Assembly: GCA_033030425.1 (NCBI GenBank)
Contig: JAUFSD010000011.1
Location: 682,001 to 746,000, forward strand
Reading direction: 5' to 3'
Source of the DNA: Verpa conica
Lineage: Eukaryota > Ascomycota > Pezizomycetes > Pezizales > Morchellaceae
DNA: 64,000 nucleotides
Shown: positions 35,309-45,900 of the stretch, piece after piece
Layout: the number at the start of each line of letters is the position of its first letter
Numbering within the stretch: the stretch's first letter is position 1
Notes under the pieces: model-generated
What the model was told of the DNA's origin: nothing
The model's input: only the letters and a program-made list of their open reading frames with translations
Database searches by the model: none
Made by a program: the position numbers and the translations under genes

Positions 35309-38300
35309 ATATATGTTCTGGCCCGTTCGGGGGACGCTGCCTATCGGGGGGACGTCCCCTGGACGGGCCGGCCTGTTGGAGGGATATCCCCCCAATGGGC
35401 TACCTGTTGAGGGGATATCCCTCCAATGGGTAGCTATAAATCAGTTTTATAGGGCATCCCCTCAATGGGCTACCCATTGGAGGGACACACTGCGTCCCCT
35501 GAACAGGTAGACAGCTATTTTACCCTATTAAATCATATTTTACCCAAGTACATCGCTTATAAAGCGCCCATATTTATCAGATAACATATAACCATTATTT
35601 GCTACCAAAAAGTACCCACAATATACTGTAACGGGGGCACTCCCAGGGGAGTACTGCCGTACCAAAAAAAACCAACAACCTCCCTTTCTGACGAGAAGCT
35701 TCAGCAGCGAGGCTTAGAACCGCTCGTCAACACGGAAGGTCGACAGTCCCTAGGCAGAACAGGAATAAGGATTTAATGGATAGATAACTAAAGACTTTAA
35801 AAGGCTCTGCTTCCCAGGGGAAGACAAACGTCTTTAGCAAAGAGTATGAGAGTCTACGAGCAGCGGTTGTTCGTTGACTAGCAAGAATGATTGTCCTGGG
35901 AAGGACGGGTTTAAGCTATGTTTTTGATTGCGAGCAGGCTGCCAAGGAGCGGGGGAACAATTCCTCCGCTTGGAAATCAACTGAGTCTAGGCGCGCAGAA
36001 CTAGCGAGGTCGATAGACTAGCGACTAAAAAGCGTTGGTTACTAAAAGCTCTGTAACTATTGCTAAAATGGTCGATTTCAAATCATTGCCTATGGATTCG
36101 CGCTGTCACATATATCAGGGTTTGGTTCGGTTGGACGAATTTTCCTGACGGTTTTGGGGTTATTTTTGGGGTCCTAAACTTGTCTTTTTGTTAGGGAATC
36201 AGCAACTCAGGGGGGCCCCCTCTGCAAACGGCGGGTGGCACAGTGGGGCGCCTCGGGGGTGTTAGAAAACACAGAGTCCCTAGGTAGTGAATCTGATGAT
36301 GATTCCTGCCGTTGCTTAGATTCCTTTCCCATGTTCCTAGTCCAACCTGGGAGCGTGGCGGAGAGGTAATCTTGATCCATAAGGACCTTAGGGCGACGCA
36401 CAAGGCATAGCCCCATACGGTTCGATTCGTGACGCCACCAGGTTAATTATTTTTGCTGGCGGCCCTAACTACTAAGCATAGCTTTGCTCTCATTTCATAG
36501 CTCTCGGCCTCCCATAAGATTGGCCATCAGCGAAGCTGTTATTATTCCTCCTAGAGGAACAGGAGCTTAACTCTGTCCATGGAGGTAACTGCTTCAGTCT
36601 CATTGCGCTAGTATCTCCCGTAGCTATAAGTGTGACGATTTAACCATCGTCATAACTAGTCTCAAGTACCTCTACATATAGAGACACCTAAATATCTCCC
36701 TTGAGGCATAGGACTAGCTATCCCATTCCGGTCAATAGATACTAAGGAAAGTCATTACTGTGATAGCCCGATCCCTAAGCGAGCTGGCAAGCCCCTAGGA
36801 CGGAGCGAAGCTCACCGTCGTCGGTATGCGACAGAGACCATAGTAATGCGTCTGTGGCCTAGAGCTACAAGAGATACTAAGTGCAATGAGACTGAAGCAG
36901 TTACCTCCATGAACAGAGTTAAGCTCCTGTTCCTCTAGGAGGAATAATAACAGCTTCGCTGATGGCCAATCTTATGGGAGGCCGAGAGCCATGAAACGAG
37001 AGCAAAGCTACGCTTAGTAGTTAGGGCCGCCAGCAAAATAAATAATTAACCTGGCGGCGTCACGAATCGAACCATACGGGCTAGGCCTTGTGCGTCGCCC
37101 TAAGGTCCTTATGGATCAAGATTACCTCTCCGCCACGACCCCAGGTTGGACTAGGAACGTGGGAAAGGAATCTAAGCAACGGCAGGAATCACCAGTGGGT
37201 TACCCTACCTAGGGGACTCTGTGTTTCTAACACCCCCGAGGCGCCCCACTGTGCCACCCGCCGTTTGCAGAGGGGGCCCCCCTGAGTTGCTGATTCCCTA
37301 ACAAAAAGACAAGTTTTGGACCCCAAAAATAACCCCAAAACCGTCAGGAAAATTCGTCCAACCGAACCAAACTCGGAGGGTATATGGGGGACAGTGCTGC
37401 GAATCCATAGGTGCAATCGGATTTGAAATCGGACCATTTTAGCAATAGTTACAGAGCTTTTAGTAACCAACGCTTTTTAGTCGCTAGTCTATCGACCCCG
37501 CTAGTTCTTAGGGGCGCTCTAGACTCAGTTGATTTCCAAGCGCGGAGGAATTGTTCCCCCGCTTCTTGGCAGCTTGCTCGCAATCAAAATCATAGCTTAA
37601 ACCCGTCCTTCCCTCAGGACAATCATTCTTGCTAGTCAACGAACAACCGTTGTTCAGAGACCCTCATACTCTTTGCTAAAGACGTTTGTCTTCCCCTGGG
37701 AAGCAGAGCCTTTTAAAGTCTTTAGTTATCTATCCATTAAATCCTTATTCCTGTTCTGCCTAGGGACTGTCGACCTTCCGTGTTGACGAGCGGTTCTAAG
37801 CCTCGCTGCTGAAGCTTCTCGTCAGAAAGGGAGGTTGTTGGTTTTTTTTTGGTACGGCAGTACTCCCCTGGGAGTGCCCCCGTTACAATAAGCTACAGAC
37901 GCATTACTCTGGTCTCTGTCGCATACCGACGACGATGAGCTTCGCTCCGTCCTAGGAGCTCGCCAGCTCGCTTAGGGATCGGGCTATCATAGTAATGACT
38001 TTCCTTAGTATCTATTGACCGGAATGGGATAGCTAGTCCTATGCCTCAAGGGAGATCCTTAGGTGTCTCTGTATGGAGAGGTACTTGAGACTAGTCATGA
38101 CGATGGTTAAATCGTCACATATACAAATCCCTAGAGACAACAACCCATGGTATAAAATCACAAAAAATCTTAAAATAATCTCAGGATAGGCTGATATTTT
38201 TCTGACTACTCACTTAATTTATTTAGGATTTCCTGTATCAATTGAGCCATGATTTATCACCTGCCCATATGGGGGACACTGGTATCCCTCCAACAGGTAA

Positions 38301-40898: not shown

Positions 40899-42986
40899 AT
40901 GAGTGTATGTTTCCCCACCCTTACATAGGTTCGAGGCTACGTATTTCGAGCATCAGCTGACAACAGGCTTTTAGGGGGGTTACGGGTATGTTCTGCTGGT
41001 CTTTGTTTTGTTTCTTCAGAATCTAGGATACAAGCATTCGCTTGATGTCTCGGGGCGGAGCGCGACATAGAGACGCGATTCATTCATGAGTCTATCTGGC
41101 CTTCTTTTGGGTGCTTTACTGACAGACTCTGGGCAACTGTTACAGTCAAAACAACCCATACGCGCAGGGCAACTACAACCCCAATGACAACTACGGTGCC
41201 AGTGGTGGATATGGCGGTGGAGCGCCAGGTAAGAGCACCCACCCACCCAAAAAAGGGACTCATCGTGCGCCAAGAGCGTTTGGAGGTTGATTGTGCAAAC
41301 AAACTAAAAGTTGAACCGTACTCCCCGTTAGGCGCAGGGAACAACTACGAGATGGGAAACATGAACGGCGGAGGTTCACCAGGCTATAGTGGCGACTCGC
41401 CACAAGAGTTCTTTGCTGAGGTTAATGAGCTCCGAGAAGGCATCGATACCGTCAAGGCCAACATCTCACGCATCGAATCCCTCCATCAACGCTCCCTGAC
41501 AGATGTCGATGAGTCTGCGTCCTCGCAGACTCAGCACCAGCTAGACTCACTAGTCGCTGAGACTTCGGCACTAAATAAGAACTTGGCGAATAGGATTAAG
41601 AGGCTCAAGAGCAAAGCAGCTTCAGATCCCTCAAAAGGTCCCCAGGTCGGGAACTTAGATAGGAACTTTAAGGATACCTTAAGGAAATATCAGACAGTAG
41701 AAGCTACCTACTCAAAACGGTCTAAAGAACAGATGGCGAGACAATACAGGATTGTCCGCCCAGATGCAACAGAGCAGGAAGTAGAGGAGGCTTGTAACGA
41801 CAGCCAAGGAGCACAGATATTTTCACAAGCAGTATGTTATCATATAGTGAGGGCATTTTCAGGTTTCAGTGCACCGGATTTAACATGTTTTACTGTAGCT
41901 CCTTAGCGGTAACCGTCGTGGTGAAGCTCGTTCTGCTCTCCGTGAAGTCCAGGCCCGACACAATGAGATTCAGCGCATTGAGAAGACTATTATTGAACTC
42001 GCAGACCTCTTCAACCAGATGGAACAACTTGTCGAAGAGCAGGAAGCCATGGTTGAAGTCATTGACCAGCGTGGCGAGGAGATCCAAACCAATGTCGACC
42101 AAGCCCAAGAGCAAATCGGGCAGGCGGTAGAGAAGGCGCGCTCAAGGAGACGCAAGAAGTGGTGGTGCCTATTGGTCGTCCGTAAGTCCAACCCTCACAA
42201 TTTCTTTTTGCAACATATATTTTTCACGATTTTCTTCCCTATCTCCTCTTGCCCTTGTAATTGTAGTTTTAGTATTCTTCCCTTTTTCTTTTCTTTGCGG
42301 TCTCTCCTGGGGTCTCTTCTCCTACAGCGCTTTATCCATGCGCAGGAATAGCCAAGATTTATCCTCCGGTTGGGAATCTGGCAGGACAGCTCTCATTGTC
42401 GTCATTGTTGTGATCGCTGTAGTGGTCACGCAGGCGTGGAAATGAAGATAGTCCCATGACGATGAACTTTGGAGAGCCCACTGTTTTTCTTAGCCCCCCT
42501 TTTAGTTGAACAAAGAAGAAAAAGAAACGGCCCTAACATCGGAACCCTTGCGTTGCGCGTGTTCTTTAGTCCTCATCATCATCGTTGTTATCATCATTGC
42601 CCTTGTGGTGACAAAGGTCAATGGGGTGTGGTGATCGGATATCCTTGGCCGCAAGCGATGTAATGGGTTGGAGGCATGTGTTTATACCTGGTTATGGAGA
42701 GAATATGTATTATTTGAAGGGTTGGTGGGAGGAGGATTAGTTTTTCATTGTTTATTTTTTTACCTTCATTTTCTATTTCCTTTATTGTCTCTTTTACTCT
42801 CTTAACCCCCCCCCCCCCCTACATACTACATTCTCAATCTTGGGCGTATGGATGAACAGTATATTGTGGGTTCTAACTGTTGCATTTTTTACTGGGGGAA
42901 CTGCAGTCCTTATCATCATTGTCGTCATCGTCATCGTGGTCATCGTCACGATGCTTAACAAGAAGGATAACAACAGCAGTGCTTAA
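40899..42986 (+). CDS. Plasma-membrane syntaxin (Sso-type Qa-SNARE) with three alternative terminal exons
   Basis: Sso-type syntaxins are the t-SNAREs for exocytosis at the fungal plasma membrane. Common exons are 40899-40904, 40975-40985 (11 nt), 41146-41228, 41332-41831 and 41899-42181, giving 294 residues. The start is Gly/Asn/Tyr-rich. The Habc domain begins EFFAEVNELREGIDTVKANI. The SNARE helix has EIQRIEKTIIELADLFNQMEQLV with the zero-layer Gln, then a basic RSRRRKKWWCLLVV stretch before the membrane. The last common exon ends in phase 1. Three downstream exons, 42390-42445, 42570-42634 and 42907-42986, each start after an AG in matching phase and each encode a membrane anchor with its own stop. 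The predicted isoforms are 312, 315 and 320 aa. Confidence 0.9.
42390..42445 (+). other. Syntaxin alternative terminal exon A
   Basis: Follows ...GGACAG and joins in phase to give PLIVVIVVIAVVVTQAWK and a stop. It is the shortest anchor, begins with a proline, and leaves a four-residue tail (QAWK) after the hydrophobic run. Confidence 0.7.
42570..42634 (+). other. Syntaxin alternative terminal exon B
   Basis: Follows ...TTCTTTAG and joins in phase to give LLIIIVVIIIALVVTK and then VNGVW and a stop. The intermediate-length anchor has a lysine just after the membrane segment. Confidence 0.72.
42907..42986 (+). other. Syntaxin alternative terminal exon C
   Basis: Follows ...AACTGCAG and joins in phase to give LLIIIVVIVIVVIVTM and then LNKKDNNSSA and a stop. 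It has the longest tail, with a polar and basic C terminus, and the strongest acceptor. It may be the ancestral form. Confidence 0.75.
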
Positions 42987-45900
42987 GCGTGCTTATTGAA
43001 GATCCCGTATATATTTGCGCTATTTCCTTCTGTAGGAGCTTAGATGGGAAGTGGGCTAGACATTCATTTCAGTATACTCAACACAGCAACGATATCGATA
43101 TTTCTCACGATGAGATGCTGGGAGGATGTGGAAAGATGGCATGGCAGGATACTTTCCTAGCTACTCTTTGCAATTACTAGTTACTTTGTTAGTTTTTGTT
43201 GGTGATAATTAACTTTCTTTTTATTGTGCTTTTCTTTAAAATGTCACTCGCGGGTACTTTTTTATATTAATTTACAGTTTTTTTGTCTGGTCGCCTTTTA
43301 CTACTCTGCTTCCTGTGGGGCTTTAACTATAAATTGTCCTAGAGACCTTTTATTTTTATCTCGTCACTAGTTGTGTAACCTTACGTGACCATAGGCGCCT
43401 GGCCCCCTATATCTGTAGGTTCCATGGTTTGATTAATATTTATTAGACTTCAAATAATTCTTTCACACCTAGTGGGAAAAAGATAGTTTGTATCAAAACT
43501 TGATTTACCATGGTTACCTTCACTACTAAAATCTATATATATATCTACACTACCTCTGGCCTAAAAATTGTTAAGTAGTGTTTAAGTACTAAAATTCAAG
43601 AGCAAAGTTAGTAGATTATTATAGATTCTCTTGCATATACTGCTCACGAAAATTCAAACACAAGTAAAAAAAGACAAGTGTATAAGTATATATATTAGCA
43701 ATTACAGTATTCAGTAGGTCGGTATTACCTATGTAGTAATTACCATCTTTACCATAAACACAATGTTTCGACAACTATAGCTAATCCAGTAATATCATTT
43801 ATTGCGCATTTTGAATTCAATGCAAATAATTGAAATTTCAAATCACCCACACGCAATCTACATTATTGTTAACTAACCAGTTGAGTACATAGATAAAATA
43901 ATGAAGTTATCTTGTTTCAGACTACGGGAAAAACAATCCTAAGCACAACTGTACAGGACAAAAGTGGGCAACATGCTCTCTTTCTGGCCTGTTTGTATGA
44001 TTTTATTCCTTGCCGCAACTCAGTCTCTATGATAAAAATAATTTTAGGTTAGCTAAAGAAAACTGATAAGGGAATGACCTAGGGTAAATAGGTAAACAAA
44101 CGCTTTCCTAATATCTCGCTACACCGCCCATATGCCTCGCAATCTTACTAAGACGTCACCCTGTGTACTTGTATATATCACTGATGTCTTGTATTCCCTC
44201 TTACAGTAACTGTATCTCCTGTTACCTTTGCAGAACCATTGATCTCTGGAAGTTAACCTCTGACTGTTCTAACAACACTAATTGTTGTGGCTGGGGCTTT
44301 TCTTGCACTTGGCTGGGATTACAAGCTGGCGGAGTGCCGAAGAGTCATTTTGAAGTATTTTCAGCCGAGGCGCGCTGTAGAGGTTGGAACTGATCAAAGA
44401 TGATAGAGAAAGTTCCTGGGGGCTTTTGGAAGGTGTGCTGCTATGAACGCTGCTTTTGATGTGTTGATTAAATCAAGTGAGGTACTCCGATTCCAGGTAG
44501 GAGTAACATGCCGAGAGCCTTTCTTAACATTTTACCTTCCTCAAAGGCTCCCCAGTAAGTTTAAGCTGGTCTCTCGTTTCCACTGACAACATTATTACAT
44601 ACTCAAAATTTCACAGTCCTTCCGGCATCTTGCCTACAGTATGAAAAAACGGGTGAATTTACTGCCATAGCACTACGGAATTTAGTCGTAAATATCGAAT
44701 TAAATTAGTAATTGAGGTATATTACTGTACCAATACCGTATTTCTCCCATATTGCTAACGTATTGGGGGAGCACCGTACTGATTCCACCCCTCTTTTTGG
44801 TACTGTACCTAAGAAGCGATGACAGCTGTGAGTCCAAGTTATTAACTAATGATATATGTGTCGAGATTGAGGAAAGGTATATATCAAGGTTTGAGTTATC
44901 TGAGTAGCGAAATAAGTTTACTTGTGGCTCGAGTCGAGGCAGATTATCGAAAGAATATTTTTTTCAGTTACTGGCCAGGTTAACTATTGTCTCTATCTTA
45001 TCATTGGGAGCTAGCGTTTAAGGCTTCGGCGTCTATTGGTGGGTGCCAATGATTATGGAAACTAGTGATGTCGCGTTTTTATGTGGGAGTCAGATGTCAG
45101 ACCAGTCCCGTGATTGCTGCATATTTGTTCATGATAAATCACTCACACTCATGTAGTGAATGAATGAATGAATGGGTTGTAAGTACATGGAGCCCAACAC
45201 ACTCATATAGTTAAGAAATGAATGAATAAATTAATCATAGTACATGTAGTCCTGAGGTTATGGTACTCGCACTCTATCAGAGATGCTTTGAAGGCTTCAC
45301 CTAATGGGTGTGGAATACCCTAACTGGCGCAAGGCTAGCAAACACCACCAAACTCACTCCACCTCAGGATGAAGTTTAGAAAGGTGGCTAGGTGAATTAT
45401 ATGAACGATTATATTCATAACAACACTAAAGAGGATATAATCGTATAAGAGGGTCGGATGCAATAGCAAAGGATTATTATTTAAGGTGGATAAAAAAAAG
45501 GAGGGGAAAGAGGGAAAGGAACTGAGAGCTGAAACACTGCTATTATTATTTTAGCCCTCCTTTCATTCATTTGGTATGATTTTTAAATACTAAAGGGCTG
45601 ACATGAAAACCTTCAACCAGTCTGCTAACTAGCTCCTATTAGATACACACTTGAGGAAATCTGGGTGTCCATGCCAGATTATCCCTAAACAAAGAAAATC
45701 CTTGAGCGTTTCATCAAATGATGAATAGTTGGAGTTAACCCCCACAGTGGTGACTGACTTAAGAGTAAATTAATTAGAGAAGGGGAGGAAAGAGGAAAAG
45801 TAAAAGAGATTATTATATTTTAATAATGGCGAGATTTACACCTTCATAATGTAAACACCCCAGTTTTTTCCCAATAATTACTGTGTTAGAGGGTGGAAGG

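Follow-up and report, generated by a model that had tools for sequence, protein, structure and literature searches.

Among known systems, one of the closest to the arrangement reported here is the C. elegans syntaxin gene unc-64, in which alternative exons 8a and 8b give two non-equivalent forms that diverge over the final 14 of 25 anchor residues, with two studies at odds over which form rescues what (PMC4946901). The same source describes the effects of alternative anchors in animal syntaxins as unequal and their basis as debated (PMC4946901). Similar to unc-64, the locus studied here holds a plasma-membrane syntaxin with candidate alternative last exons that would alter its membrane anchor; however, unc-64 is an animal gene with two anchors under splicing control by UNC-75, whereas here there are three candidate anchors in a fungus. 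Mammalian syntaxin 2 is a second precedent, again an animal gene, and common descent of the alternative exons is unsupported at the present locus. Among filamentous ascomycetes, diversity of secretory syntaxins is known from SsoA and SsoB of Trichoderma reesei and Neurospora crassa, and the two T. reesei proteins serve separate regions of the hyphal plasma membrane (PMC2639358). That diversity arises from a pair of genes, unlike here, where one gene carries the candidate anchors and a second Sso-like gene is present as well.

Other fungal work touches the subject from further away. An account of Yarrowia lists three SSO genes and, in the portion available, does not mention anchor isoforms (PMC2241642), and the available part of a Pyronema study describes frq as alternatively spliced but does not mention SNAREs (PMC3778014). 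Mutually exclusive exons of the mushroom Schizophyllum commune are described as lying mostly in untranslated regions (PMC5034255), a pattern against which alternative coding last exons would be notable for fungi. No fungal report of alternative syntaxin anchor exons was found in the open-licence papers searched.

The syntaxin gene and its divided anchor

Judged by homology, the gene at 40899-42181 on the forward strand of the window (the whole 64,000-nt stretch of Verpa conica DNA that was analysed) is an Sso1/Psy1-type Qa-SNARE, a presumed secretory (plasma-membrane) syntaxin of this morel-like fungus. Its best homologue in a protein search is a Morchella sextelata protein with 91% identity over 89% of the query. 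In both the A and C forms described below, Pfam scores lie above the curated cut-offs for the syntaxin domain PF00804 (47 bits, cut-off 26.7) and the SNARE domain PF05739 (42-44 bits, cut-off 26.8). A search of solved structures returned Sso1 and Sso2 chains in its first five rows (E 9e-52 to 1e-37), followed by syntaxin-1A at 2e-18, so that the Qa-SNARE identity proposed in an earlier note on this DNA is borne out. The query gene model used for the homologue searches, Pfam, the structure search, and the quick and 29-row trees described below differs from the final one in its first nine residues.

The final model begins with a coding exon of only Met-Ser (40899-40904, donor GTATGT), followed by an 11-nt coding microexon, GGGGGTTACGG, at 40975-40985, which keeps the phase, is preceded by TAG and followed by GTATGT, and matches GGYG of the M. 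sextelata protein P0001. Joined, these two exons read MSGGYGQNNPYAQ, the N-terminus found in P0001; the microexon is required for this match. Phase and homology place a further coding exon at 41146-41228, and the exon at 41332-41831 holds most of the syntaxin Habc domain (PF00804). The last common exon (41899-42181) carries the SNARE motif (PF05739) and the first part of the membrane anchor, KKWWCLLVV, and ends in phase 1 before a donor, GTAAGT (42182-42187), that would be shared by all downstream exons and fits the GURWGH element of the filamentous-ascomycete splice consensus GURWGH / DYURAY / HAG (PMC6616335).

Three candidate terminal exons

Downstream of this donor, on the same strand, lie three candidate terminal exons: A, of 56 nt (42390-42445), reads PLIVVIVVIAVVVTQAWK and then stops; B, of 65 nt (42570-42634), reads LLIIIVVIIIALVVTKVNGVW and stops; and C, of 80 nt (42907-42986), reads LLIIIVVIVIVVIVTMLNKKDNNSSA and stops. 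Each is preceded by an AG, continues in phase 1 from 42181, encodes a Val/Ile/Leu anchor and then terminates; the locus thereby has the series of phase-matched candidate terminal exons, each finishing an anchor before its stop, that marks syntaxin genes of the unc-64 and syntaxin 2 kind. The coordinates and frames given for them in the earlier note were right, and the interchangeability claimed there holds in the sense of the reading frame. The same note had them differing in anchor length, which amounts to one residue only, as 13 hydrophobic residues precede the Thr in A and 14 in both B and C. Its observation of differing tails stands (TQAWK in A, TKVNGVW in B and TMLNKKDNNSSA in C), and the three differ mainly in these outer tails and in the composition of the inner helix half. 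Third-position G+C is 0.61 in A, 0.71 in B and 0.77 in C, with 0.55 in the common exons and 0.41-0.46 G+C in the stretches between the anchor exons.

Such a series is not readily produced by chance. We defined a site as an AG followed by a phase-1 continuation, a 14-residue mean hydropathy of at least 2.8 in a window beginning within the first three residues, and a stop after 15 to 44 residues; exactly three sites, namely A, B and C, are present in the 919-nt stretch 42182-43100. Among 5000 dinucleotide shuffles of this stretch, 4899 had no site, 96 had one, four had two and a single one had three, which agrees with the earlier view that a chance origin is very unlikely. Scanned on both strands in three phases, the rest of the window yields 8 sites at the 2.8 cut-off and one at 3.2, compared with three here. 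A loose cut-off of 2.0 gives 118 sites there, as many as 4 of them sharing a phase inside 800 nt, and it is therefore the strength of the hydropathy that makes A, B and C unusual.

The splice signals are unequal. C has a likely branch site, TCTAAC (42872-42877), that fits DYURAY and lies 30 nt before the end of the acceptor AG, and B has one at 42533-42537, CTAAC, with one mismatch to the six-base DYURAY and 33 nt before the acceptor. A DYURAY scan found no canonical branch site within 80 nt before the acceptor of A; the four common introns have one in that range in 4/4 cases. The pyrimidine fraction in the last stretch before the acceptor is 0.35 for A, 0.65 for B and 0.47 for C, and from the two signals together C and B would be expected to be in more use than A. 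No donor of the searched pattern occurs inside A, B or C, nor within 120 nt downstream of either A or B, so each would be a last exon; a match to the donor pattern, GTGGGC, is present after the stop of C. Between B and C stands TATGTA (42704-42709) and after C TATATA (43008-43013), motifs whose meaning we presume from yeast and which could mark separate 3' ends.

Taken together, these observations suggest that A, B and C are probably alternative terminal exons chosen by competing acceptors, with B and C real and A real but weaker. This reading draws on the rarity of three sites in the shuffles, the branch sites before C and B, the lack of donors of the searched pattern in the three exons and the animal precedent, and also on the relatives considered below, where B and C tails recur, A has a counterpart and one class of tails does not form a single clade. 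It is weakened by A, which lacks a canonical branch site and has a pyrimidine-poor acceptor (0.35 vs 0.65 for B); alternative anchors are accordingly graded as likely for B and C and as a candidate for A. Mechanistically, the membrane anchor would be split by an intron, the shared part ending after KKWWCLLVV plus one base, and the single GTAAGT donor could be joined to any of the three acceptors. Competition among these would leave one terminal exon per transcript, which would finish the transmembrane helix, add a short outer tail and stop, with B and C as the main forms and A as the weaker one. As has been proposed for animal syntaxin anchors, the differing inner helix half and outer tail might tune where in the membrane an otherwise identical SNARE body gathers, and by analogy the forms might concentrate at distinct sites on the plasma membrane. 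A fungus with up to three natural anchors on an identical SNARE body would provide a matched set with which to probe the inner helix half and the outer tail.

The anchor exons in relatives

The earlier note had proposed comparing the same intron in related species. In P0121, P0122 and P0123, three proteins of close relatives encoded on contigs of 36.7, 10.0 and 65.4 kb, the sequence runs past the last common exon and on into the intron, and in these read-throughs A and the start of B appear in the same order as here; all three end short of C. A was read in them only by back-translation of the out-of-frame proteins. Its exon frame is open for 20 codons from a possible, not certain, AG and then stops (18 codons in the window), the stop being certain in P0122 and P0123 and possible in P0121, and no earlier stop is possible in this frame in P0122 or P0123. 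P0121 crosses A in a different frame from the other two, and hence the intron before A changed length by a non-multiple of three while A did not; moreover, T is obligatory at the second position in five anchor codons of A in P0121. P0121 and P0123 continue into B, P0122 ends where the B acceptor would be, and a CTAAT-compatible branch site, partly hand-read, precedes the B acceptor in the read-throughs.

These data bear on the likeliest alternative, namely that just B and C serve as anchors, A being a fading or rarely used exon kept mainly in close relatives. We regard this as a substantial possibility, if short of an even one: the acceptor of A has the weakest pyrimidine stretch and lacks a canonical branch site, and A here falls two codons short of its counterparts in P0121-P0123, but the loss is of whole codons with phase and stop kept, and the exon frame in P0122 and P0123 admits no earlier stop.

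Further afield, we assigned tail classes to the best 20 of 445 homologous proteins. Eight of these 20 (P0001, P0002, P0003, P0005, P0006, P0012, P0013 and P0015) end in a W-type tail as in B, which is the annotated anchor type of P0001 (Morchella sextelata) and P0006 (Tuber indicum), and seven (P0007-P0011, P0014 and P0019, with P0007 and P0014 only loosely) in an NK-type tail as in C. The end of P0009, TLVNKKSNGTA, is near the tail of C, and Asn-Lys-Lys tails similar to that of C are found in other Pezizales and in outgroup fungi. The remaining five (P0004, P0016, P0017, P0018 and P0020) run on into the intron or lose the phase; for P0004 and P0018, a hand reading that is not certain would allow a W-type exon in a different frame. 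These five public models, from Tuber magnatum, Ascodesmis, Sphaerosporella, Geopyxis and Pyronema, apparently lack a proper anchor because they run into the last intron or enter the exon out of phase, tiny last exons being easily missed. P0002 (W) and P0008 and P0010 (both NK) come from contigs of 1278, 1342 and 1247 bases, which are too short for the coding length plus introns as long as those here, and are probably spliced transcripts.

Conservation of the other anchors in relatives, which the earlier note had made a point on which its reading depended, is seen in part: B-type and C-type tails both occur in relatives, but in different species and with one tail in each protein, and among the proteins compared B and C stand together in this species only. 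One tail per protein, together with the B type of the M. sextelata protein, would be expected if a single anchor, most likely B, were used and the others were relics of former last exons that are no longer spliced. We consider this unlikely, as C has good splice signals and a tail type shared with other Pezizales and outgroups, and unused stretches would be expected to lose their frame or hydropathy.

A core tree from which the tail was left out, built on the 8 W rows that were read directly together with 15 NK rows (the 7 among the best 20 and 8 picked further down), needs at least 2 tail changes and rejects the W rows as one clade (p-AU 0.0003). When the W set is enlarged by the hand-read P0004 and P0018 and by the syntaxin of the window (29 rows, with a long-branch warning), 3 changes are needed (p-AU 0.0012). 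Several forks are weak, and the groups were named once the tails and a quick tree were known. This interleaving of W-type and NK-type tails points to an old age of the two anchor types within Pezizales, their old coexistence being the simplest reading and repeated tail change the alternative. At present it is a tentative extension, which we put forward as possible, that Pezizales inherited from a shared ancestor at least two alternative anchors (Trp-stop and Asn-Lys-Lys) for the principal syntaxin of their plasma membrane, with morels having a third. Were this true, a fungal splicing switch of syntaxin anchors would have evolved in parallel with that of animals, and would act beside or instead of gene duplication in specialising sites of secretion.

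Origin of the exons and other SNARE loci

Exon duplication, which the earlier note had named as the natural explanation of the three anchors, is plausible given the LLIII..T pattern common to A, B and C, but their similarity is not clearly above that of codon composition: the observed DNA similarity was reached in 331 of 5000 membrane-codon shuffles for A-B, 116 of 5000 for A-C and 1082 of 5000 for B-C. A looser control reached it in 36, 1 and 25 of 3000, respectively. That A, B and C are instead simple-repeat-like ATC and GTC runs reading as hydrophobic by accident is highly improbable, for although they are rich in ATC, GTC and GTT, the A stretch of P0123 resembles a GTC run and the DNA similarity among them does not stand clearly above codon composition, three sites arose in just 1/5000 shuffles, B and C finish with specific tails shared by real homologues, and the phase and stop of A are kept in relatives. 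With few strong sites elsewhere in the window, we judged both chance and simple repeats unlikely as the origin of the series.

The genome searched comprises 45.8 Mb in 25 contigs. From searches with exon C, PF05739 and PF00957 we scanned SNARE loci L001-L011 (L001 and L003 being this gene, and L008 and L011 overlapping), requiring neither an acceptor nor a phase. Among them only this gene has three stop-ended, anchor-type hydrophobic segments in a row; L004 has two stop-ended hydrophobic segments, the second of them weak. An anchor series as a general habit of this genome's SNARE genes was rejected on the basis of these loci.

The second Sso-like gene lies at G000:C6:874995-875845 (L014, L015 and L017) and has a long Asn- and Thr-rich tail. 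The gene, matched at G000:C6:875549-875845, shows 40% identity in the SNARE region, and its single anchor is in the same exon and open frame as the SNARE motif. Upstream of the syntaxin in the window, 35800-38119 is occupied by a long nested inverted repeat with seven arm pairs of 72-231 nt that are 95-99% complementary, which may be a mobile element.
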